Under the pieces are notes generated by a model that was given only the letters and a program-made list of their open reading frames with translations, was not told the origin of the DNA and searched no databases. Position numbers and translations under genes: made by a program. DNA of 64,000 nt from positions 1 through 64,000 of the IMG/VR virus record IMGVR_UViG_3300009159_000049; one strand, written 5' to 3'. The number at the start of each line of letters is the position of its first letter. The stretch's first letter is position 1. The DNA comes from a virus. Shown piece after piece: positions 6,025 to 34,300 of the stretch.

Positions 6025-6578
6025 CCATACCTCCGATATCATTAGGACTTATCAAAGGCGCTGAGTGGCTCAAGGCTCTCAACGCTGAGATGTTCTCGTT
6101 TGGGCAGGCGCATGGCCATATGAACAAGAGTGCGGATCACGCTTCAGTGCACGCTCTTGCTGGCAGGCTTCAAGCAGGTCCCAGCGGTAACCTAGAACTA
6201 ACAGTCCCCTCTTCGCTTATCAAAGGTGTCTTTGACGCTCTAGATGAGCCAGGGGCTGAATTCGTTGTGCGTAACAATAGAACTGAGTGCGCTATCAAGG
6301 TAATGACCAAAGAAGAGGTAGATAAGCTAGGCGGAACTAGCCATATCACTGAGCGCGGTCACTCTTATCACTACACTCTTGGCCCTATAGTTGAGCTGCC
6401 TGCAACAGGTGAGTATGAAAAGCTGTGGGCTATTTCTATTAAGAGCGATGACCTAGAGTCCATCCGACGAAGCTACGGATTGGAGACGTCTCCACAACTG
6501 GGGTTCTACATTCCAGTAGGGTGTAAGAAGAAGAGAGTTACTGAGGATAATGAGGTGAGTAAGCTGTCAGTAGTGTAG
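6021..6578 (+). CDS. Hypothetical protein
   Basis: 185 residues, family not recognised. Residues 19-40 (LNAEMFSFGQAHGHMNKSAD) look like a diverged form of the tag seen in the neighbours. The rest is a mixed alpha/beta domain with TSHITERGHSYHYTLGP near the middle and ends in basic GCKKKRVTED. A palindrome of the dispersed family (6481-6494) lies in its coding sequence, read here as L-E-T-S-P, a different frame from most other copies. ATGA overlap with the upstream gene. Confidence 0.55.
   Translation: MTIPPISLGLIKGAEWLKALNAEMFSFGQAHGHMNKSADHASVHALAGRLQAGPSGNLELTVPSSLIKGVFDALDEPGAEFVVRNNRTECAIKVMTKEEVDKLGGTSHITERGHSYHYTLGPIVELPATGEYEKLWAISIKSDDLESIRRSYGLETSPQLGFYIPVGCKKKRVTEDNEVSKLSVV
6481..6494. 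repeat. Dispersed palindrome site 1
   Basis: TGGAGACGTCTCCA, perfect 14-base dyad inside the 6021 gene, reading frame L-E-T-S-P. Confidence 0.9.
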
Positions 6579-10007: not shown

Positions 10008-10042
10008 GGATGACGCTATACGTCACCATCAGGAGCCTAGAT

Positions 10043-12301
10043 ATGCCGTTCAAATCTGATTCACAACGTAAATTATGTTACCTCCTCAAGGGTAAAGGCC
10101 AAGCTGGCTCATGGGATTGCGATGAGTGGTCTACCGCTACAGGTAAGAAAGACCTACCAGAGCATGTAGAAGATCAAGCAGAGAAGAAGGCTTTAGAAAC
10201 TAACAAGCTTAAGGGTGGAGTAGGCGATGACAAGAAGCCTTCAGACTTCTCTAAAGGAGTACTCGATGAAGGCATTGACGAAGAAAAAGAGCACACTAAC
10301 GACACTGGCATGGCTAAAGAGATAGCCATGGATCACTTAACTCAAGATCCTGAGTATTACACTAAGCTTAAGAAGGTTGAGAAGAGCAGTAGCCTTGCTG
10401 CAGTAAAATATTTGTACTCTATATGGGCAGGCTCGTCTCCTTTGAAAGCTGCTGCAGAGCGTACGCTACTGTCTAAGCTGTCTTCTGTTATTACCAGTCC
10501 TGGCAGAGGATCTGGTGATGAAGAAGAAACCGCCATCAACTCTGACTCCTCAGAGGGTATGCAGGTAACTAAGCCAATTAAGCCAGTCCCTGGAAAGATG
10601 AGTTTTAATCAAAAAGGTTTAAAGCCAGTTGCTCCGCTTGGTACTGCGCGTAATGCGTTAAGAAGAGTAACAGAGAAGAATCTAGGCTTTGATCCAGCTG
10701 GCGGGGTTAAGCAAGCACAGAGCATGGTCAAGTTATGGAAAAACATACCTGGATCCATGTACAGGTCTATGTTTGGTAATAAGCCTGCGATTCCTAGAGC
10801 GCAGCGCCCTAAGAAGGACTGGGAGCTTTCAGACTTCGCTGAAGAGTACCCAGAGCTTAAGAAGCTGAACTTTCAAGACCTATACAGGCAGGCAGAGCAG
10901 CGAGTGCTAAAGCGCATGGTAAAAGAGCATTTCCATGGCTCTCCAGAAAGCCTTTACGCTGGCGGCTTGGTTCTAGATAACAATGATAGGGGCCAATCAA
11001 CTAAGCAAGCTGAAGGGCCATCTTACATGCAACAGGTCTATCAAAACTTTGCTAACCCTGTAAAGTCAGTAGGAGAGTTTGGAAGTGCATTCCACAGCAT
11101 AGCTAACAATATAGACGATAGTAACAAATCAAGAGAAATGGCTTATAGGCAACGGTCTCAGCTAGGAAGGGCTAATGCAGCTCCTTCTGCGTCAGGTACA
11201 GCTCCTGCACGTAACTTTGACTTCTCTAGTATAAGCTCAAAAGCTAAGCTAGATCCTTCCATACTAGGTACTGCACCAGCTAGAGGCTTTGACTTTGCTA
11301 ACATGAAAAAGTCGTTGCAGAACACTGGCAGGCAGGTTGGAGCAGCCGCAACTTCAGAGGTAGAAAAATGGGTCAGGGCTCCAGGCTGGACCAGCCCAGG
11401 GGAAGTAACTAGGCGATACAATCAAGCTAAAGGTGCTGAGAAGGCTATGGGACAAGCCACTGATAGCGCAGGTAAGGTTATTTCTGGAGCTCAAAGGCTT
11501 GGAAAAAACTTCTTATCAGCAGGCGGAACGCTCATGGGTATGGGCAAGCAGTCTGACGTTGCTGCACCAAGTGCAGGATCAGCTCCAGCTCCTAAGGCTG
11601 CAGCGCCTGCAGCTTCTAGTCCTTCTCCTTCTTTAAAGTCTATAGGGTCAGGAGTAATGAACGCAGGGTCTACAGCTTTGCAGTCAATGTACAGCCCAGA
11701 GGCTTTTGAGCGCCTTCAGGCTATGAGTAATCGACCAGACCTTCCTGCTATGGCTAACAACGTAAGCAATTACTTTAAAGGAACTGGAGACGTCTCTAGT
11801 ACGATTAATGGATGGGCAGACAAAGCAATTGACTACGGGGTTGATAGTTACTTAGGTAAATCTTTAAACCCATTTACTATGGCCAAGGGTGTTATTGCTA
11901 AAAGTAAACTAAGGTCTATGAAGGACAACGCATCTAACTACGCAGGCGGAGTAGCTCAAGGTCTAGGTACTATGGCTACTAACATTGGCAACACAGTTAG
12001 GAAAGTTCCAGGCGTTGCGCCAGCTATTGACACTGTTAAAGATGTAGGTAGAGGCATGCAGCAAGGCATGTACGACTCTGCAGGTCAGTACGAAGCTGAG
12101 AGGCGCACCGCTGGATACGCTCTTCCAGTAGTTAACTTCATGCAGAACAACCCCTGGGCCAAGTACCTTTTAGGCGCTCTAGGCACAGGCGTAGCAGGCT
12201 ACGGGCTTCACAGCATGTTTGGTGGCCAGCAGAAGCAGCAGAACGGGCAAGCAGAAGGTGTATTACAAAACAGTTATAACCAAGGGTTGAAAGGGGCTTA
12301 A
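10043..12301 (+). CDS. Large DUF5661-like, virion-type protein
   Basis: 752 residues from ATG 10043 (SD CAGGAG); the longer frame from 10010 lacks a site. The N-terminus MPFKSDSQRKLCYLLKGKGQ with SWDCDEW is a short module common at the start of phage proteins. Residues about 70-110 (GVLDEGIDEEKEHTNDTGMAKEIAMDHL, continuing to DPEYYTKL) match the DUF5661 pattern as I recall it. The remainder is long, low-complexity, Ala/Ser/Gly/Pro-rich with GTAPAR repeats, and ends in a short hydrophobic segment (AKYLLGALGTGVAGYGL) near 727-745. Probably a structural or internal head protein; function unknown. Confidence 0.6.
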   Translation: MPFKSDSQRKLCYLLKGKGQAGSWDCDEWSTATGKKDLPEHVEDQAEKKALETNKLKGGVGDDKKPSDFSKGVLDEGIDEEKEHTNDTGMAKEIAMDHLTQDPEYYTKLKKVEKSSSLAAVKYLYSIWAGSSPLKAAAERTLLSKLSSVITSPGRGSGDEEETAINSDSSEGMQVTKPIKPVPGKMSFNQKGLKPVAPLGTARNALRRVTEKNLGFDPAGGVKQAQSMVKLWKNIPGSMYRSMFGNKPAIPRAQRPKKDWELSDFAEEYPELKKLNFQDLYRQAEQRVLKRMVKEHFHGSPESLYAGGLVLDNNDRGQSTKQAEGPSYMQQVYQNFANPVKSVGEFGSAFHSIANNIDDSNKSREMAYRQRSQLGRANAAPSASGTAPARNFDFSSISSKAKLDPSILGTAPARGFDFANMKKSLQNTGRQVGAAATSEVEKWVRAPGWTSPGEVTRRYNQAKGAEKAMGQATDSAGKVISGAQRLGKNFLSAGGTLMGMGKQSDVAAPSAGSAPAPKAAAPAASSPSPSLKSIGSGVMNAGSTALQSMYSPEAFERLQAMSNRPDLPAMANNVSNYFKGTGDVSSTINGWADKAIDYGVDSYLGKSLNPFTMAKGVIAKSKLRSMKDNASNYAGGVAQGLGTMATNIGNTVRKVPGVAPAIDTVKDVGRGMQQGMYDSAGQYEAERRTAGYALPVVNFMQNNPWAKYLLGALGTGVAGYGLHSMFGGQQKQQNGQAEGVLQNSYNQGLKGA
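11783..11800. repeat. Dispersed palindrome site 2 (one mismatch)
   Basis: ACTGGAGACGTCTCTAGT, an 18-base dyad with one mismatched pair, inside the 10043 gene (T-G-D-V-S-S). Confidence 0.75.
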
Positions 12302-12324: not shown

Positions 12325-12951
12325 ATGGCAGTATTTAGTAATGACCCAAGAGCGCAACAGCTATGGGAACGATCACAGATGCTTAACCTTATTACATCTA
12401 GGCCATGCATAGAGGGTAAGGGTACGGGTCAGATTGCTGGACTTGTTGATATATGCGGTACCGATGACAAGAAAAGGGAGCGCCTCGGTTATTCAAGATG
12501 TCTTGGAAACACAACAGTAACCGACTGCCAAGATTACAACCGTAACGTCAAAGCTAAAGCAGAAAACAACGCCGAACTTCAAAAGTACCTGAAGGATACG
12601 GCTAAGGCTAAAGCAGATAAAGATAAGAAAGCAGCTGAATTAGCTGCAGAGCAAGCTATACTAGCGCGCCGTAGAGATGCTGATAAATCCCTTAGTGATG
12701 CTTACAGTAGGGCTTGCAGCGCAGGTGCTCGTGATGCACAAAATAGATCAGTTGATAAGACCTGTCTTGAATTAGAAAAAAAGCGTATTGCCACCGATAA
12801 CTTCGGTACTGCAAGATCTAATGTTACTTTCGATGAAGTTGCAAGGGAGCTAGGCACATCCAAAGCCAGTGGAAAGAAGCCTGCTAAGTTAAAAGCAAAG
12901 GCTAAAGCTAAAGCAAAAGCTGCAGCTAAACTTAAAAAGAAAAACCGATAG
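12325..12951 (+). CDS. Basic-tail family protein 1
   Basis: 208 residues, not recognised. Cysteine-containing N-half (RPCIEGKG, VDICGTDD, SRCLGNTTVTDC) and a long Lys/Ala-rich helix from about 75. The C-terminus is strongly basic (KLKAKAKAKAKAAAKLKKKNR-type) and ends in KLKKKNR, shared with several following genes. Such tails can bind nucleic acid or target proteins into phage heads. SD AGGAG. Confidence 0.6.
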   Translation: MAVFSNDPRAQQLWERSQMLNLITSRPCIEGKGTGQIAGLVDICGTDDKKRERLGYSRCLGNTTVTDCQDYNRNVKAKAENNAELQKYLKDTAKAKADKDKKAAELAAEQAILARRRDADKSLSDAYSRACSAGARDAQNRSVDKTCLELEKKRIATDNFGTARSNVTFDEVARELGTSKASGKKPAKLKAKAKAKAKAAAKLKKKNR

Positions 12952-12964
12952 TGGAGACTATACT

Positions 12965-13576
12965 ATGACTAATTTTATGCAAATGGCATCAGGCGGCGGT
13001 AGTAGTGCTGCTGAAAACGAAACGAGAGCTATAGCCGGTCTTCTTCTTGAGTTTAGTCATGCAATTAAGGGTGCAGCGCCTGCACACGTTGTTGAGGGTC
13101 AAGCTCTAGTTAGCAGTATAAAAGCAGGCAATGCTATAGTTTATGACTATGAGTCAAGATTGCACACTATATCTAGATTAGAAGCTCTCAAGTTTGGCTA
13201 TGCTCCTCCTGTGACCATAGAACAGAAGGCGGCAGCCCTTAAAAATGGTGGTCGCTTGCCCACTAGCACAATTAACTTTGGTAAAATTAAAAGTGAAGCC
13301 ATGTTTAAGGAGCTTAATCAATTTATTAGTGATTATAAAAGGAGCTACCCCATGCCAGCTGGGTATGATGGTATAAAGTCAAAGCTCACTGCAGACGTTG
13401 GACGTCTTAAAAACTTAAGGCAAAAGCTTGAGGCTTCTTTTACTGTACAAAGGGGAAGTAGCTCAGCTTCCACTCCAGCCTCCACCCCAGCTGCTGGAAC
13501 CAAGCCATCTAGCCTTAAGAAAAAATCTACTGGTAAAAGAGGTTCAGTGGCAAAACTTAAAAAGAAAAACAGATAG
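12965..13576 (+). CDS. Basic-tail family protein 2
   Basis: 203 residues, not recognised. Helical N-domain (residues 15-150), then a Ser/Thr/Pro/Ala linker (SSASTPASTPAAGTKPSS) and the basic end SVAKLKKKNR. The linker-plus-tail layout suggests a flexible C-terminal signal appended to a domain unrelated to its neighbours. SD GTGGAG in a half-palindrome-like AGTGGAGAC just upstream. Confidence 0.6.
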   Translation: MTNFMQMASGGGSSAAENETRAIAGLLLEFSHAIKGAAPAHVVEGQALVSSIKAGNAIVYDYESRLHTISRLEALKFGYAPPVTIEQKAAALKNGGRLPTSTINFGKIKSEAMFKELNQFISDYKRSYPMPAGYDGIKSKLTADVGRLKNLRQKLEASFTVQRGSSSASTPASTPAAGTKPSSLKKKSTGKRGSVAKLKKKNR

Positions 13577-13590
13577 TGGAGACGTCTCCA
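13577..13590. repeat. Dispersed palindrome site 3 (intergenic)
   Basis: TGGAGACGTCTCCA starting directly after the stop of the previous gene and ending directly before the AAGGAG ribosome site of the next. It could overlap translation control as well as being a protein-binding site. Confidence 0.9.
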
Positions 13591-13602
13591 AAGGAGTTAG
13601 TT

Positions 13603-13848
13603 ATGATGCTGCAGCTAGATCCTCCTATTCCAGTTATAACCATCAAAGGCAAGGGCATGGCTCATGTCATAATAGACTACAGCCAAGATCACGATCTTAT
13701 GTGGGTTGTGTTTCAAGATGACACAGGCGAGTGCTGGACTTGGCGTAACGCTGATGTAAGAGGTCAAGGTAATGCCACCCTAGGCAGGCCTGAACCAGTT
13801 GTATCTGCTAACAAGCAGTTCCTTAATATGCTTTTAAAGCAAGACTAG
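13603..13848 (+). CDS. Small conserved-type hypothetical protein
   Basis: 81 residues from ATG 13603 (AAGGAG at 13591-13596). The track-length frame starting at GTG 13576 would run through the palindrome and has no SD. Compact, with HDLMWVVFQDDTGECWTWRN in the middle, resembling small beta-rich phage proteins I have seen without assigned function. It sits between two basic-tail genes and the C39 peptidase. Confidence 0.6.
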   Translation: MMLQLDPPIPVITIKGKGMAHVIIDYSQDHDLMWVVFQDDTGECWTWRNADVRGQGNATLGRPEPVVSANKQFLNMLLKQD

Positions 13849-13964
13849 ATAAGGACTTACGTTTAATTAGTTTTTATAGGTTCCTACCGTGAGATAGCTG
13901 GGTTATTATATATTAGTGGCATTTAGCTGCTTTACATCTTAACCCCTCACGCAAGGAGCCATAC

Positions 13965-14549
13965 ATGGACAGGACCCTGCGAGGAAATCGAATACCTTTA
14001 CCTGACGCTCGTCAGAAGTCCTGTTATACGTGCGGACCCGCGGCCCTTAGCGCTATCTTTGGCTACTGGGGCGAGTTCATCGAGGAGTCTATTTTAGCTG
14101 CAGAGCTTAAGTCCGATCCTGTTGACGGAACCACTCCTATGGCCCTTAGCAAGGCTGCCAAGGCAAGAGGTTACAGCACGGTATGGCACGAGCGAATGAC
14201 CAACCAAGAACTTAAGTATTATTTAGAAGAAGGCCATCCAGTAATCATAGCTGTGCAGGCTTGGGCTTCTACGCCTGCTGAGCTAGCTGGAGACAGCGGC
14301 CACTACGTTATAGCAATAGACTACGACGCTAATAACGTTTACTTCGAAGACCCAGCCTTAGATGACGCTAGGGGCTATATACCTTGGAAAGACTTTGAAG
14401 ACAGGTGGCATGATAAGGATAAGACTGGAAGACCTTACAGGCGGTTTGGCTTAGCGATATGGAAGAATGAGAGGCCCGTTACAGAGGCGTTTGTAGAGTC
14501 TATCTCTATGATCCTATTTGAAGACAAACCAACAAAAGTAGGAGGATAA
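13965..14549 (+). CDS. C39-like papain-fold cysteine peptidase
   Basis: 194 residues. Gln17 and Cys23 in QKSCYTCGPAAL give the oxyanion-hole/nucleophile pair, His113 in SGHYVIAIDY the general base, and Asp129 in YFEDP the third residue: the layout of Peptidase_C39_2 proteins. Bacterial C39 domains cut double-glycine leaders in ABC exporters; this one is free-standing with no membrane or ABC part, so another substrate is likely, such as virion tails or a host protein. No signal peptide. It lies among the KLKKKNR-tail genes, which makes these its most obvious candidate partners (inference). Confidence 0.8.
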   Translation: MDRTLRGNRIPLPDARQKSCYTCGPAALSAIFGYWGEFIEESILAAELKSDPVDGTTPMALSKAAKARGYSTVWHERMTNQELKYYLEEGHPVIIAVQAWASTPAELAGDSGHYVIAIDYDANNVYFEDPALDDARGYIPWKDFEDRWHDKDKTGRPYRRFGLAIWKNERPVTEAFVESISMILFEDKPTKVGG

Positions 14550-14550
14550 C

Positions 14551-15492
14551 ATGGCTGAGCCTACACTTGGAGAGCGGATATTTGGAACAGCAGAAGAACA
14601 ACGACTACGCTACGCTAACTCTAAACCGGCCAATGGTTTTACAGGTAGAGGGCTAACTCCATTTGAGCTGGCTATAGCAAACGCTAATGCTGTTAGTGCT
14701 GCTGAAACTAGGCTGCGATATAGTGGCCCTTTAAACTCTAATTATTTCCTAGATGTAAGAACTCGTCAGCTTGGGTTTAGTTGTGATACCAACCTCAATG
14801 CGCCTATTGGTGTTACTAAATGCACAGGAGCTCAAAGGGATGCTATAAAACTTTATGAAAGGGGTAATTCAAATGCTGTAGTAGCTCAACGGTATAGAGA
14901 CAATAAAGCTAAAGCTTTAATTAATAATGCAAATCAAATTGCTGCAAAACCTGCTGCAGCTTACGCTGCAGAAATAGTTAGTACAGCCACTCCAGAGATG
15001 AAAGAAGCAATACGAAGGGACATGATTAAAAAGGGCCTTCTTCATCCTCTTGAAACTACGTGGAACTCAAGTGCCGAAGTCCAGCTTACTAATTATTACA
15101 GCGGTCCTTCAACTCTTGGTTCTTCTGAAGGTTTTGCTGCGCAGGCAGCTGCTAACTTAGCGCAAGTAGGTAAAGATACTAGGACTGTGTCGTATGAACC
15201 TGCAGATATGCGAGCGGCGGCGATAGCACGTAGGGCTTTAGCTAACAACGCCAAGCTTGACGATCAGACCAATAGAGACAATCAAGCCGCAGCGATAGAC
15301 GCAGTCGCTAAGCCTATTATTACGGCCCAGCGTAAAGAGGCTTTCCCAGTATACGATGCACTAGCTAACGCTGTAGTCTCTCAATCAGGCTCAGCAAGGG
15401 GACCAGCTGGTAAAACTCCTGTAGTATCAAAAAAGAAAAATAAAAAAGTAGCTAGGCCTCCTGTTTCTAAACTTAAAAAGAAAAACCGATAG
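14551..15492 (+). CDS. Basic-tail family protein 3
   Basis: 313 residues, no recognised domain. Mostly Ala/Asn-rich helix. It has a Cys pair region (GFSCDTNLNAPIGVTKCTGAQ, positions about 75-95) similar in style to the 12325 and 17313 proteins. Ends PPVSKLKKKNR. Starts one base after the C39 peptidase stop codon with an SD inside that gene (GGAGGA), so the two are likely co-translated. Confidence 0.6.
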   Translation: MAEPTLGERIFGTAEEQRLRYANSKPANGFTGRGLTPFELAIANANAVSAAETRLRYSGPLNSNYFLDVRTRQLGFSCDTNLNAPIGVTKCTGAQRDAIKLYERGNSNAVVAQRYRDNKAKALINNANQIAAKPAAAYAAEIVSTATPEMKEAIRRDMIKKGLLHPLETTWNSSAEVQLTNYYSGPSTLGSSEGFAAQAAANLAQVGKDTRTVSYEPADMRAAAIARRALANNAKLDDQTNRDNQAAAIDAVAKPIITAQRKEAFPVYDALANAVVSQSGSARGPAGKTPVVSKKKNKKVARPPVSKLKKKNR

Positions 15493-15503
15493 GAGATAAT
15501 AAT

Positions 15504-16400
15504 ATGGACGAAGAAATGAGGCTACAAGCTATCGTAAATGACCCATACGCAAGAGATCAAGATGCTATTAATGAAGCTTCACAGGCTCTATACGTGCTTA
15601 GGCTAAGGCAGGGGCTAAACAGATCCTCACCTACGGCCATTAATCAAGTTTCAGACTTAAACAGTCAGTTGGCTGTTGCGCGTCAAAAGATGAGCCGATT
15701 CAGGCCTGCGCTTGATAGGCTAGACCGGCTTTATAGACTACTAGAGGCTGGCATACCAGTGCAAATTAAAGACTCTTACGACGTCCTTGGAGTGGACCGA
15801 CTGACCAAACAAGAAATTACTGAGACGTTTACCGTAGGACAGGACGGAGACTACGGCAACAGTGTAACTACCATAGACGAGGCTAGAGTAAAAGGTACAA
15901 CTCCACAAGAACAGGCTAAAGCGTACATAGCCGAAAACTTAAGAAAACTACTGGCAGCTAGGTCCGCTGTTCGACAACAGTCTAGCAACCTAGCTGGAGG
16001 AATAGCTGGATTAGAGATAAAGATTAAGAATTTAGGTTTCAAGGTTGAGCCTGATTATAAAGCTCCTGGCATGCACCCAGCTGCTGAAGCTGCATACCAA
16101 GGCGGCTCAAAAGCTTCAGCTTCTTTAAACCGTGTGGGTTCAGCTAAAAAAAATAAAACCTTGGGATTTAATCCTGCGCCGATTCCAACTGTAGAGGCAG
16201 AGGACCTTCAAAGCCTTGAAGAAGGAGACACCGCTAGCTTTGTTCCTATAGTTAATAAAGGTTCAAAAAAAGCTAAGTCAAAAGTTTCTAAGGCTATTAA
16301 GAATGCTCAGCCAGCTAAGTCTAATGCATTGGCTGCCCCTAAGCCTCCAGTAAATAAAAAGCCTGCTCCTGTTTCTAAACTTAAAAAGAAAAACCGATAG
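15504..16400 (+). CDS. Basic-tail family protein 4
   Basis: 298 residues, not recognised. Predicted helical N-two-thirds with an Arg-rich region (MSRFRPALDRLDRLYRLLEA); Lys/Ala/Pro-rich tail from about 235 ending PAPVSKLKKKNR. The last ~35 bases, including stop codon and the SD of the next gene, match the end of the 14551 gene almost exactly, so the tail module extends across the gene junction. Confidence 0.6.
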   Translation: MDEEMRLQAIVNDPYARDQDAINEASQALYVLRLRQGLNRSSPTAINQVSDLNSQLAVARQKMSRFRPALDRLDRLYRLLEAGIPVQIKDSYDVLGVDRLTKQEITETFTVGQDGDYGNSVTTIDEARVKGTTPQEQAKAYIAENLRKLLAARSAVRQQSSNLAGGIAGLEIKIKNLGFKVEPDYKAPGMHPAAEAAYQGGSKASASLNRVGSAKKNKTLGFNPAPIPTVEAEDLQSLEEGDTASFVPIVNKGSKKAKSKVSKAIKNAQPAKSNALAAPKPPVNKKPAPVSKLKKKNR

Positions 16401-16411
16401 GAGATAAGACT

Positions 16412-17302
16412 ATGTCATATAATATTATTACATTTTCAAATAAAGGCAGTGGTACTACAACAGGTTCTAACGGAGTTCCATTTAAACAAGGAGATGTTAT
16501 ATCTCTTGGACAATTTGAAAGAGCAGGTATATCAGGTTGGAATGAAAGCCTAGACGGCGTTTACCGTGTAGAGGCTGTAACCTCTAAAGGTTTAGTTGTA
16601 ACAGGCGGATCCACAGCTAAGTGGGGAGATGGCTCAATCAATCAGCCATTCGCTGTACCTCCTGCTGCCCTTACTAATATGCCTAATTATGCCATGGGCT
16701 CTAAGCCTCCTTACTCTGCTGTTAGGTCTAGCGGTGGAGCCTCTATAGAAAACGCTAGAGGTTACAACGTAGGCGATTATGGAGCTGGAACAGATTGGTG
16801 GGTTCATGCGTTTACCAGTTCTGACCCTGGCAGCCCTGCACCAACTGCTATTCAGCCAGTAGTAGGACAGCCTGCTATAAAGCAACCTGTACAAGGTACA
16901 GATCAGTTTACACAGTATGAAATAGAGCAGCCTCAAGTAGCTCCCCTACCTACTGCTAATCCCTTACCTACAGCTAATCCTTTACCTACAGCTAATCCTA
17001 AGCCAACTAGGCATTGTAGATGCAATAGCAAGCCTAACGTAGTGCCGCCTAAAGAGCCACGGCCTGATCCATTTGACATAGGTAAGTTTGTAGCCTCTGC
17101 TAACTTTGTAGCAGGTACTAGCGCAGCAGCTAATGTAGCTGGAGCTACTGCTTTTAGAGAGGACGCTAGAAGCGCTGCTAAGAAGGCTAACTTAAATAAA
17201 GCTCAAACTAAAAAGCTTTTGGATACAGTTGAAGCTGCTATAGCTAAGTCTAAAGCAAAATCAAAGAACAAGGTGTTAGCTAAACCCAAGAAAAGAAAAT
17301 AA
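16412..17302 (+). CDS. Basic-tail family protein 5 (variant tail)
   Basis: 296 residues. The N-domain (1-140) is beta-rich, with SLDGVYRVEAVTSKGLVVTG resembling small SH3-like or OB-type barrels. A Pro/Gln linker contains three direct copies of LPTANP (about 178-195), followed by HCRCNSK. The tail is KVLAKPKKRK, a basic variant without the KLKKKNR ending. Function unknown. Confidence 0.55.
   Translation: MSYNIITFSNKGSGTTTGSNGVPFKQGDVISLGQFERAGISGWNESLDGVYRVEAVTSKGLVVTGGSTAKWGDGSINQPFAVPPAALTNMPNYAMGSKPPYSAVRSSGGASIENARGYNVGDYGAGTDWWVHAFTSSDPGSPAPTAIQPVVGQPAIKQPVQGTDQFTQYEIEQPQVAPLPTANPLPTANPLPTANPKPTRHCRCNSKPNVVPPKEPRPDPFDIGKFVASANFVAGTSAAANVAGATAFREDARSAAKKANLNKAQTKKLLDTVEAAIAKSKAKSKNKVLAKPKKRK
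16944..17001 (+). repeat. Tandem 18-base repeat in coding sequence
   Basis: Three consecutive copies encode LPTANP, then a fourth diverged KPT; likely a flexible linker that varies in copy number. Confidence 0.8.
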
Positions 17303-17312
17303 GGAGAATAAA

Positions 17313-18095
17313 ATGGCATTTATGTTGAATCGAAATTTACCTTACTGGCAACAACAACAAGCTGTACAAGCTAACATGAAGGCTAACGAAGACGCATCTC
17401 GAGCTGCTTCAGACGCAAGGGAAGCAGTTACTCAATTGTCTGGAGCCATTAATAGGCAGCCTAGCGCTAACTCCACCAATCCTGGCATCGGAGCTATTGT
17501 CCCATACACTCCTCCTGTTTTTGATCCAAGGCTTGGTGGTCTTGCAGTAGAATCATGCCAAAAGAACGGCGGCTATTGCGGTGACACAGAAGGCATTGCT
17601 AGAGAGGCTATTGCTAAGGCCACTGTTGCCGACAGGCTGGCTTATGACAAATCAGTAGCCGATAAAATAGCTGCTAATTTTGAAAGGAACAAACCGCGCA
17701 ACCAAAAGCTTAAAGAAGCAGCAGACGCCGCCGCCGCTGCAGCGGCGGCTGAAGTACAGAAGGCTGCTGCTAATTCTTTACCTAACCTCATAGCAAACGC
17801 TGTTGCCACTGGTAAGTGCGACTCACCTAACTTAGTCAACACTGCTATCTTTCAATCTGCACAGTGTAGAAGCTACAGAGGTATTCAGACCGATAAAAAT
17901 AAAGCAGACATAATAGCCGTTAATAAAAAGGCAGCTGATGAAGCTTCAAAAAAGCTTGCTGACGCTTTAACTAATAAGAAGACCGCTGCAGAAAAAGTAA
18001 AGAAGCCACCAGCCAAGCTAAAGGCAAAGGAAAAGGCTAAGAAGGCTTTTGCTAAGGGCATAGCCAAGATTAAAAAGCAAAATAGAAGAAGGTAA
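17313..18095 (+). CDS. Basic-tail family protein 6 (variant tail)
   Basis: 260 residues, helical, Ala-rich (a run of eight alanines near 142-150). Cysteines in SCQKNGGYCG and ATGKCDSPNLV echo the cysteine patches of the 12325 and 14551 proteins. C-terminus KAFAKGIAKIKKQNRRR, a diverged form of the basic tail. Strong SD AAGGAG. Confidence 0.55.
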   Translation: MAFMLNRNLPYWQQQQAVQANMKANEDASRAASDAREAVTQLSGAINRQPSANSTNPGIGAIVPYTPPVFDPRLGGLAVESCQKNGGYCGDTEGIAREAIAKATVADRLAYDKSVADKIAANFERNKPRNQKLKEAADAAAAAAAAEVQKAAANSLPNLIANAVATGKCDSPNLVNTAIFQSAQCRSYRGIQTDKNKADIIAVNKKAADEASKKLADALTNKKTAAEKVKKPPAKLKAKEKAKKAFAKGIAKIKKQNRRR

Positions 18096-18143
18096 ATTAC
18101 TTTACTAAGTTTTAGGTGACTAGATAAAAGTAAGGAGGTTACT

Positions 18144-19052
18144 ATGGCAGGATGGCCTACGCCGACAACTGCGGCTGAGCAGAAGCAATATATGGAGTAC
18201 CAAGACCAAGCGCTTAGAGAAAGGAACTCGCGGCAGTGGGATCGTGATTTTGCTGCAAGATCTGCAGCAGCAGTTGCTTCTGACAATGAAAAGCTTAAGA
18301 GAGCAAACGACATTCCATACGGTAAGCACATGGCTGAGGTAGAGCAAGCTGATAGATTACGTCAGCAGGAGCGAAGCGCAGCAGAGTATAATGATGCTAT
18401 GATTAGAAATGGCGGTATTCCACCAGGACGCACATTCGGATTCGGAGGCGGCCCTACTCCAGCAGAAGCAGCAAGGATAGCTGCTCAAAAAAAGGAGTTT
18501 GATATGCTAACACAAAAGGCTGAAGCCGAGTACCGAGCTACTAGAGACAGAAACTACCAGAACGAGATGCCTCAGCTTATTGCAACATACTCAAAATCCT
18601 TGGCTCGTGCCACAACAGGTGGACTCGATTCGGAAGGCAATAATGCAATAAATCGTATAAACATGCTTGCTGTTGCTTACAAAGGTGCGGATAAGGACAA
18701 GTTTTTAGCCCCTGTTAGAGCGGCAGAAGGACTAGTAAGTAAGATTGTATCTGCCCAAAGCAACAAAACTGCTTCCAACTCAGATCAAATAGTTGCTTTT
18801 GGACTTAGACCTAGTACTGAATCGCAAATAATTAAAGCAGACGTACTTGCAAAGCTTAACTCTAAAGATAGCTCTTTGGACCGCAAAACAATAGAAGCAT
18901 ACGCCGCAGCAGGCGCTGCAGGTAAAGTTTTATCTAACATAGTTGATAAACAAAAGGCTTCAGTATCTAAAGTAACAAAACCTTTAGCTAATAATAAGAA
19001 AAAGTCTAAGGCTGCAAGACCTGGGGTATCCAAGCTTAAGAAGAATAGGTAG
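18144..19052 (+). CDS. Basic-tail family protein 7
   Basis: 302 residues; charged coiled-coil-like N-half (EQKQYMEYQDQALRERNSRQ) and helical C-half; ends KAARPGVSKLKKNR. Unlike its neighbours apart from the tail. It has the strongest SD of the cluster (AAGGAGG) and a 48-base gap upstream. Last member of the tail family; a dispersed palindrome follows the stop. Confidence 0.6.
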   Translation: MAGWPTPTTAAEQKQYMEYQDQALRERNSRQWDRDFAARSAAAVASDNEKLKRANDIPYGKHMAEVEQADRLRQQERSAAEYNDAMIRNGGIPPGRTFGFGGGPTPAEAARIAAQKKEFDMLTQKAEAEYRATRDRNYQNEMPQLIATYSKSLARATTGGLDSEGNNAINRINMLAVAYKGADKDKFLAPVRAAEGLVSKIVSAQSNKTASNSDQIVAFGLRPSTESQIIKADVLAKLNSKDSSLDRKTIEAYAAAGAAGKVLSNIVDKQKASVSKVTKPLANNKKKSKAARPGVSKLKKNR

Positions 19053-19055
19053 TAG

Positions 19056-19069
19056 TGGAGACGTCTCCA
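19056..19069. repeat. Dispersed palindrome site 4 (intergenic)
   Basis: TGGAGACGTCTCCA, between the last basic-tail gene and phoH. Confidence 0.9.
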
Positions 19070-19095
19070 ATGTTGGTAGTTCGGTGTAACCCATA

Positions 19096-31391: not shown

Positions 31392-34300
31392 ATGGCTGGA
31401 ATATTCTCAGACGATGAAGACAACCTAATACCAGAGCCGACGCTAAGCAAGCCAGTCGGCTTGGTTAGTTCTAAGGCTCCTTTAAAGCCAGTAGCGCCAC
31501 CGCCAACCATGCGTCGGTTTGATGATGTAGCAGCTACTAGAGCTGCTATATTCGGAGGAGTTCAAGCGTCTGCAGCTGGCATTCAGCCTTTAGTAAATCA
31601 AAGGCACACTTTAAGCATTGCTGAAGTTGGCTGGAATGACGAAGAAGAAACTAAGTCAATTAAGTCACAGAAAGAAGCTATCTTAAAAGGTAACACTCTT
31701 AGCAGAAGCCTAAAGGGTACTCTTAACCTTACAGATAATGAGACAGGCGAGGTCTTAGATTCTAAGAGAACAACTCTAGCCAAGGTTCCTTATCTTACAG
31801 ACAGGGGAACGTTTATAGTAAAAGGCACAGAGTACACGCTGGCAAATCAGATGCGACTTAAGCCTGGAGTGTTCACAAGAGTTACAAATAGCGGTGACGT
31901 AGAGAGTCACGCAAACATAATGCCTGGAAAAGGCGCATCGCATAGATACTCGCTTGACCCAGCTAAAGGAGTTTTTTCTATAGGATTCGGTCAGTCTTCT
32001 GTTCCTATAACTCCACTTCTTAAGGCTTTGGGCGCTAGCGACAAGCAGCTGAGAGAAGCTTGGGGTAATGAAATATACCAAGCCAACGCTGATACAGACG
32101 ACCCAAGCCATCTTGATAAAATATTCAACAGAATAGCTAAATCAAAGCCAGGCGACGTAGTCACTCCTGAGAGCAGGAAGAAGTCGGTGATTGAGGCTAT
32201 GTCAAAGATGGAGATGGACCCAGAGGTTAACTCACGGACACTTGGTAGCCCGTTTGCCAATGTTTCAGCAGACTCTATCATAGCAGCTACAAAAAAACTG
32301 CTTGCAGTTCATAGGAAAGAACAAGATCCAGACGACCGTGACGCTATGTCGTACCAGTCTATGATAGGGCCAGAAGACCTATTTTCAGAAAGGGTAAAGG
32401 TAGCCCATAGAGTAATGAGGCCGCTGCTATGGAAAGCCAGCTTTAAAAAGAACCTAAGCTCTTTTGCTCCTGGGTTTCTAGACTCTCAGATAAATGGCGC
32501 TATTATGACTAGCGGACTTGGTCAGCCTCTTGAAGAGGTCAACCCAGCCGACTTGCTTAATCAGATAACTAGGGTTAGTAGACTTGGAGAGGGTGGTATA
32601 CCTTCTCTTCAATCAGTGCCAGAAGAAGCTCGTAATGTGCAGCCATCTCACTTCGGGTTTGTAGACCCTTTATTAACTCCTGAGTCTCTTAAGGTTGGAG
32701 TGGATAGCAGAATAGCTATCAACTCTCGTAAGGGCATAGACGGAAAGGTTTATGGTAGCTTTAGAGACGTCAATACAGGAGAAGACGCATGGAAAACTCC
32801 TCAAGAGCTTGCAGGATCTGCAATAGCTTTTCCAAATCAAATGGCAGACAAAACCAATAATAAGATAGCTGCACTGGTCAACGGAAAGATCAAGTACGTA
32901 GACAGGAAAGACGTTAACTACGAGCTTCCAAGAATGGAAAGCTCCTTTAACCACTTAGCAAACATGATTCCTCTTAAGAGCGCAACTAAAGGCCAGAGAG
33001 TTATGATGGGCGCTAGAATGCTTACGCAGGCGCTACCCCTTCAAAACCCAGAATCTCCTTATGTGCAATCGGGAATGCCAGACGAAGACGATAAGTCTTA
33101 TGAAGAATCTTATGGCGGCCACATGGGTGCTGTAAGGTCTACCGTAGCAGGACAGGTTATAAAAGTGGATGGAGACGAGATACACATTAGGGGTGATGAC
33201 GGACAGCTGCATAAGAAAGAGATTTACAACAATCTTCCATTCAATCGTAAGACGTTTTTGCACAATACGCCTACCGTAAAAGTAGGAGATGTAGTTGGAA
33301 ATGGAGACCTATTGGCTAGGTCTAACTATACTGACGATAAAGGTACAGCTGCTTTAGGTACAAATCTAAGGTCGGCGTACATACCTTACAAAGGATACAA
33401 CTTTGAAGACGCGATTGTCATATCTGAAGGCGCAGCAAAGAGATTAACGTCAGAGCATATGTACCAGCATGAGGCTGAGCTTGGCGACGATTCAAAGCAT
33501 GGAAAGAAGCCTTTTTTAACTCTGTTTCCTTCTGAGTACTCTAAGGAAGCCCTGTCTGGCATGGATGACAACGGTGTTATAAAGGCTGGCACAGTTGTAA
33601 GAAAAGGTGACCCACTTATCTTACAAGCTAACATACTGTCAAGAGCCCATAATCAGCAGGTTGGAAGATCACGTAACGGGTTTACAAACGCAACAACTAC
33701 ATGGGATCACGAGAACGAAGGAATAGTAACTGACATAGCTCAAACTAAAAAGGGGTATTCGGTAACTGTTAAAAGTCTTAACCCGATGAAAGAAGGTGAC
33801 AAGCTCTCTGGAAGGTATGGAGATAAGGGTGTTATAGCTGCAGTTATACCAGAAGATAAAATGCCTAGAGACGCGCAAGGTAGACCTTTTGAAATACTTC
33901 TTAATCCACTAGGGGTTATAACTAGAACCAATCCAAGCCAGATGGTAGAGGCAGCTCTTGGAAAAGTTGCTGAGAAGACAGGAAAGCGCTACGCTATAAA
34001 AGACTTTGATAACATTAATGACCTTACAGAGTTTGCAATAAATGAGCTTAAGCAAAACAACCTTAGCGACATGGAAGACATCGAAGACCCAGAATCAGGT
34101 AAGAAGATAAAGAACATCTTCACTGGTAACAGGTTCTTTATGAAGCTTCACCATACCTCAGAGTCTAAAGGACAAGGCCGCGGTATAGCTAGCGGATACA
34201 CTGCAGAGGAAACTCCAGCAAAAGGTGGAGAAGAAGGCAGCAAGCGCATGGCTCTTATGGATGTTAATGCACTTCTATCTCATGGTGCTCATGAGGTTCT

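Follow-up and report, generated by a model that had tools for sequence, protein, structure and literature searches.

Why should a row of neighbouring phage genes whose products have little else in common end in the same short lysine-rich peptide, and does the cysteine peptidase gene lying among them have any part in this? A sequence-only reading of the window (the whole stretch of 64,000 nucleotides that was analyzed) had proposed a C-terminal sorting signal, for example to DNA or the head, possibly processed. The locus was therefore considered together with the rest of the phage genome and with the genomes of its relatives.

Source phage and gene content of the locus

The window belongs to a 92,955-base IMG/VR record. 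A larger record of the same virus, IMGVR_UViG_3300027782_000032 (190,371 bases, here G001), is identical to it at 92,954 of 92,955 bases. The virus is a large, uncultured tailed phage that encodes a multisubunit RNA polymerase (genes at 31392 and 39647); further landmarks are given in Table 1. Relatives of its capsid protein (58-100% identical) are encoded on at least 80 IMG/VR contigs, and isolated relatives, with about 30% identity in this protein, are Salmonella phage Arash and Vibrio phages D69, D148, and D181. Two MAG contigs with a related capsid gene (Zixiibacteriota and Methylococcales) were too weak a basis for naming the host. The locus was compared with those of G002 (L008), G003 (L009), G004 (L010), and G005, with G006, G045, and G038 as further controls. 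Identity of the major capsid protein is 97-98% among G001, G003, and G004, and 95% for G005.

The interval 12325-19052 contains nine genes, flanked by a DUF5661 gene and by PhoH. All seven ORFs of the sequence-only reading were recovered at the stated coordinates, but its seven-gene cluster becomes one of nine genes when the C39 peptidase gene lying among them and an 81-aa gene are counted. The latter probably starts at the ATG near 13603 rather than at 13576; its product is 73-91% identical in the three relatives with tail genes, and in G005 the gene is absent from between DUF5661 and C39. Pfam and PHROG scans of ten interval proteins and of the tail proteins of the relatives gave convincing matches only to C39 and DUF5661. 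The DUF5661 protein (window 10010-12301) is conserved in its N-terminal part (MPFKSDSQRKLCYLLKGKGQAGSWDCDEW; DUF5661 at 85-125); outside it, identity between close relatives is about 37-47%, and the protein is variable like the tail genes.

Table 1. Features of the locus and its surroundings (window positions, except for the last row)
Feature	Position	Strand	Remarks
Tail gene 1	12325..12951	+	208 aa, end AAAKLKKKNR; G002 orthologue ~49% identical, with a different C-end
Tail gene 2	12965..13576	+	203 aa, end SVAKLKKKNR
Palindrome TGGAGACGTCTCCA	13577..13590	.	adjoins the stop codon of tail gene 2; left bracket of the module
81-aa protein (MLLQLDPPIPV...)	13603..13848 (about)	+	
C39-like cysteine peptidase	13965..14549	+	194 aa; Pfam Peptidase_C39_2, 2e-14
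Tail gene 3	14551..15492	+	313 aa, end PVSKLKKKNR
42-base junction repeat (tail, stop, following SD)	15458..15499	+	identical at 16366-16407
Tail gene 4	15504..16400	+	298 aa, end PVSKLKKKNR; G003 orthologue has tail RRKLARLKAGR
Tail gene 5	16412..17302	+	296 aa, end AKPKKRK; family in all four tail-gene genomes
Tail gene 6	17313..18095	+	260 aa, end KIKKQNRRR
Tail gene 7	18144..19052	+	302 aa, end GVSKLKKNR; codons mostly unlike those of tails 3 and 4
87-base stretch (tail 7, stop, palindrome)	18995..19081	+	70% identical to 13516-13602
Palindrome TGGAGACGTCTCCA	19056..19069	.	right bracket of the module, before PhoH
PhoH	19124		beyond the right palindrome bracket
Ribonucleotide reductase	24973		
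Major head protein	51921		PHROG match
G004 tail gene	L010:10587-11345		involved in an ORF overlap

C-terminal tails

Five of the seven proteins end, as had been read from the sequence, in a KLKKKNR-type peptide (KLKKKNR at 12951, 13576, 15492, and 16400, KLKKNR at 19052), and the two others indeed have diverged basic ends, KPKKRK (17302) and IKKQNRRR (18095). A net charge of at least +7 in the last 20 residues was found in 8 of the 211 ORFs of the 190-kb record, seven of the eight being in the cluster (hypergeometric P = 9e-11 for the clustering of basic C-termini). In 200,000 shuffles of the tails, a C-terminal 4-mer was common to three proteins 14 times and to four proteins never; the observed tails have a C-terminal 7-mer common to four proteins. 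The corresponding DNA pattern occurs in four copies in the 92,955-base and 190,371-base records, all within the cluster. Restriction of the tail to these genes, which the sequence-only reading had named as evidence against a signal, does hold in this genome, where the tail is confined to the locus, but the same kind of tail is present at this locus in relatives. Searches of IMG/VR with alignments of tail proteins 5, 4, and 1 (16412, 15504, and 12325) and with the exact tail DNA returned only the same small genome group, and hence the tag could not be traced further.

Bodies and linkers

The bodies preceding the tails had been described as unrelated. This is nearly right within the genome, where the best non-self match, between tail proteins 1 and 6 (12325 and 17313, E ~0.01), involves Ala/Lys-rich stretches, but G002 and G003 each contain two copies of the tail protein 5 (16412) family. 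With the last 60 residues removed, the bodies have pI of 7.7-9.3, compared to a median of 6.7 for the other proteins (P = 0.005), and are about twice as rich in alanine as the rest of the proteome. The linkers before the tails are rich in Pro, Ala, Lys, Thr, and Ser. AlphaFold models, both with a pLDDT of 54, predict a beta-rich protein for 16412 (from four sequences) and a helical N-terminal half for 15504 (from two sequences); in both, a partly folded N-terminal part would be followed by a long low-confidence linker. No fold match was found for either model, and no homologues of tail proteins 3 and 4 (14551 and 15504) were found in 50,697 phage records.

The 16412 family (L008:11536-12798, L008:12824-13609, L009:13387-14640, L009:14652-15506, L010:11350-12129, and window 16412-17302) combines a beta-rich N-domain (GSNGxxFKxGD), a Pro/Thr linker, and a helical C-domain (PFxxxAxFxxGTxAxANxxGxAAF...LxKAQ). 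No match to this family was found in Pfam or by a profile search of solved structures.

Variation of the locus among relatives

G002, G003, and G004 have a common frame consisting of the DUF5661 gene, the 81-aa gene, C39, tail genes, and PhoH. Among G001-G004, C39 is 93-94% and PhoH 82-97% identical, while the genes around C39 are mostly different: the tail bodies are either unrelated or about 31-52% identical (about 49% for 12325 and its G002 counterpart and for 15504 and that of G003, 31-52% within the 16412 family), and body comparisons with the related genomes yielded no relative of tail gene 2. The tails follow the lineage, being of the KLKKKNR type in G001, the KPKGRR type in G004, and the TKLKGKK or TPLKKR type in G002 and G003. 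With orthologues excluded, the mean tail score is 23.7 within lineages versus 16.5 between them (permutation P = 2e-4), and orthologous bodies carry unlike tails, e.g., PVSKLKKKNR versus RKLARLKAGR. Across lineages the tag is defined loosely, by Lys/Arg richness only, with K-L/P-K common. There are exceptions: two orthologues at the G002 and G003 loci end near YCGYGCI and have no basic tail, and G002_8881 has no tag.

In G005, the DUF5661, C39 (65%), and PhoH genes are consecutive; no tail gene was found at the locus, and none of the 148 ORFs of this incomplete record has a basic C-terminus. A whole-record scan of G005, G006, G045, and G038 revealed from zero to two basic C-termini in each, never clustered, those of the last three genomes being one or two scattered ends each; the count of the same scan for G004 is too low, as it left out L010:10587-11345. 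In Salmonella phage Arash, which has many annotated structural proteins and on which a literature search found no paper, neither homologues nor such tails were seen among the structural-region proteins compared. The region is a hypervariable accessory locus, in which the set of bodies is exchanged and the tag is different, yet again common, within the relatives.

Conservation of the tail as DNA and as peptide

The near-identity of tail, stop, and following SD in the 14551 and 15504 genes was confirmed: 42 bases are identical, 35 of them up to and including the stop codon and 7 beyond it. The rare arginine codon CGA (7% of Arg codons) is present in three of the four identical tails and the same pattern of Lys AAA and AAG codons in all four, and the identical tails therefore have a recent common descent as DNA. 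The 87-base stretch ending the module is one of two direct repeats 5.5 kb apart, between which lie the 81-aa gene, C39, and tail genes 3-7. Moreover, unrelated genes of G002 and G003 have a common 32-base block of tail, stop, and palindrome. The tag, judging by the junction repeat, also travels as DNA.

The codons of tail 7 are GTA TCC AAG CTT AAG AAG AAT AGG, and those of tails 3 and 4 are GTT TCT AAA CTT AAA AAG AAA AAC CGA. The tails ending at 15492 and 19052 differ by seven synonymous changes, no non-synonymous ones, and one in-frame codon (P = 3e-5), in a test for which pairs were chosen because their peptides are alike and which does not separate descent under constraint from independent origin. 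Several pairs of G004 tails behave likewise (e.g., six synonymous and no non-synonymous changes), and KPKG[RK][RK] is kept there with varied codons. As either origin requires selection on the peptide, selection looks to act on the tail peptide itself and not on DNA alone, and the tag itself appears to be the thing kept.

Palindrome and other repeated motifs

The two copies of TGGAGACGTCTCCA bracketing the 81-aa gene, C39, and tail genes 3-7 lie within the 87-base direct repeat. As a perfect palindrome of 14 bases, (AG)TGGAGACGTCTCCA(CT), the motif occurs at window positions 6481, 13577, 19056, 27769, 35872, 41805, and 49119 (seven observed, zero expected). It is present in 23 copies in G001, 9 in G002, 14 each in G003 and G004, and 8 in G005, and is clade-specific, being not found in ten other relatives. 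In G001, 19 of the 23 copies are inside ORFs, in all frames. At places alignable on both sides, the motif is kept in 7 of 8, 7 of 7, 6 of 6, and 6 of 7 cases in comparisons among G001, G003, and G004. Of the other 14-base windows in these alignments 3-9% are kept, and the sequence around the motif is about 72-77% identical. The mean spacing is 7.7 kb with a CV of 0.46, more even than in all 5,000 random placements. A ParB_N protein was sought as the owner of the motif and none was found, nor did a literature search reveal a dispersed phage palindrome of this kind. By its distribution, TGGAGACGTCTCCA looks like a candidate dispersed binding site for a phage or host DNA-organizing, partition, packaging, or repair protein.

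Just upstream of the locus, about three to four proteins per genome carry the N-terminal repeat MNRLEKAAAFGRMMGKLAA. The start MNR(L/F/Y)EKAAAFG(A/R)MMGK(L/R)AA is found on unrelated proteins at window 1858, 4184, and 4846, in a shorter form at 2478, and also in G002-G004; one protein with the MNR(L/F/Y)EKAAAFG start has a P-loop kinase-like match. In G038, a distant relative, several proteins share a different repeated start, MITASELGKLAARVKMA. Starts of the MNRLEKAAAFGRMMGKLAA type may be a lineage-specific candidate N-terminal head- or capsid-targeting signal; no protein with both N-terminal MNRLEKAAAFGRMMGKLAA and the C-terminal tag was found. Finally, the 12-mers AGGAAACCAAGG and AGGCTATCAAGG are repeated at many places of the 190-kb record (G001, reversed), with as many as 42 copies.

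Possible function of the tail

Processing of the tails, which the sequence-only reading had raised as a possibility, is not supported for C39. The 13965 protein scores above the cut-offs of both Pfam PF13529 and PF03412, its Cys, His, and Asp are conserved in all relatives aligned, out to G006 and G038, and its gene lies within the cluster wherever tail genes are present (four genomes), as would be expected if the tail were a propeptide cut off by its neighbour. However, the peptidase persists with its catalytic residues in G005, which has no tail genes, C39-like genes are also present in the cluster-less G006 and G038, and the protein is about 94% identical across genomes whose tails differ. 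As C39 is present without tails and barely changes where they change, we do not connect it with them. Further, neither GG nor any other cleavage-like site common to the tails precedes them, while C39 leader-peptide systems have a double-glycine leader and an ABC transporter; here the enzyme is a stand-alone phage protein of 194 residues. Among solved structures, the nearest to it in sequence are the cell-wall pseudomurein endoisopeptidase PeiR and ABC-transporter (ComA-type) C39 domains. Altogether, cleavage of the tails by this peptidase is extremely unlikely, and C39 would be a resident neighbour for which the role of a tail protease is unlikely.

Ordinary tandem duplication with bodies diverged beyond recognition, suggested by the two homologous copies of the 16412 family in G002 and G003 and by the weak 12325/17313 similarity, is very unlikely as the origin of the seven genes, since the other five bodies have no significant similarity in this genome and the models, though both of low confidence, differ in kind. 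The repeated DNA of the locus would be accounted for if ORFs had been fused upstream of a resident 3' end, the common, functionless tail being a by-product of recombination; the 42-base junction repeat, the CGA codon common to three tails, the 32-base block of G002 and G003, and the 87-base direct repeat at 13516 and 18995 all fit. We consider this improbable, because tail 7 keeps VSKLKK-NR through seven synonymous changes with none in amino acids, and the G004 tails keep their peptide with varied codons. A more serious alternative, though still somewhat unlikely, is that the tails are generic electrostatic nucleic-acid-binding ends, the proteins working on DNA or RNA within the infected cell without ever being packaged. 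Lys/Arg richness is the sole feature common to all lineages, the bodies are basic and Ala-rich, and the packaging signal could be the different N-terminal repeat, MNRLEKAAAFGRMMGKLAA; so loose a tag fits plain electrostatic binding and a specific receptor equally. Against this, the exact order of residues (KLKKKNR, KPKGRR) is kept within a genome and changed between genomes, which is needless for charge alone.

The tail peptide is better read as a C-terminal signal. That part of the sorting-signal proposal stands without the C39 processing: a short, lineage-uniform peptide is kept on mostly unrelated bodies, after a low-confidence linker rich in Pro, Ala, Lys, Ser, and Thr. Our tentative preference, a possibility rather than a probability, is for a hypervariable locus whose products are directed or tethered, by their lysine-rich C-terminal tag, to nucleic acid or to the head interior. 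The tag would be a common address or tether holding the proteins on nucleic acid, most likely the packaged genome or the prohead interior. Since tails differ among G001, G003, and G004 while their capsids are nearly identical, the capsid shell is unlikely to be the specific receptor, for which nucleic acid or a partner that evolves faster is the likelier candidate. It counts against the favoured reading that MNRLEKAAAFGRMMGKLAA may be a better candidate than the tail for a head-targeting signal. Like the T4 internal proteins, the tagged proteins could be delivered together with the DNA and serve as exchangeable factors for host takeover or counter-defence. A new body would gain the tag on being recombined into the locus upstream of the resident tail-stop-SD module. 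Taken as a whole, the extended proposal, in which a tag re-homogenized in each lineage loads or tethers an exchangeable arsenal of unrelated proteins and tag-stop-SD doubles as the recombination anchor that tags new bodies, is doubtful.

Similarity to known systems

The internal proteins of phage T4 are diverse and have only the capsid-targeting sequence (CTS) in common, and lysines contact the packaged DNA (PMC3012670). As in IPI-III, a short terminal peptide is common here to accessory proteins with otherwise unrelated bodies, and a hypervariable gene set occupies a fixed site between conserved genes. However, the T4 CTS lies at the N-terminus and is removed by the prohead protease, whereas the tag is C-terminal, lysine-rich, and lineage-specific, with no recognized cleavage site; T4 internal proteins are found inside virions and ejected with the DNA, and the tail proteins would be packaged likewise if the favoured reading holds. 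Their PHROG and Pfam comparison yielded no match to known internal proteins. Encapsulin cargo-loading peptides, which are short, C-terminal, and found on unrelated cargo, direct it into an HK97-fold shell (PMC8346489). The tails similarly form a short C-terminal peptide on diverse bodies, after a linker predicted to be flexible; the shell in this case would be the phage prohead, and the tails differ while the capsids are 97-98% identical. Encapsulin targeting peptides are not known to be lysine-rich. Histone H1-like and other DNA-compacting proteins have lysine/alanine/proline-rich tails, similar in composition to the linker and tail described here; the difference is the exact C-terminal order common to unrelated bodies.

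If the extended proposal is true, these phages would have in the tag a C-terminal equivalent of the T4 capsid-targeting sequence, beside a separate common N-terminal motif. Should the tag load or tether its carriers, exchangeable and probably host-takeover proteins would be recognizable by sequence alone where databases give no match, and foreign proteins might be brought into a phage head by fusing the tag to them. The locus would then be one that swaps protein bodies and keeps the address.
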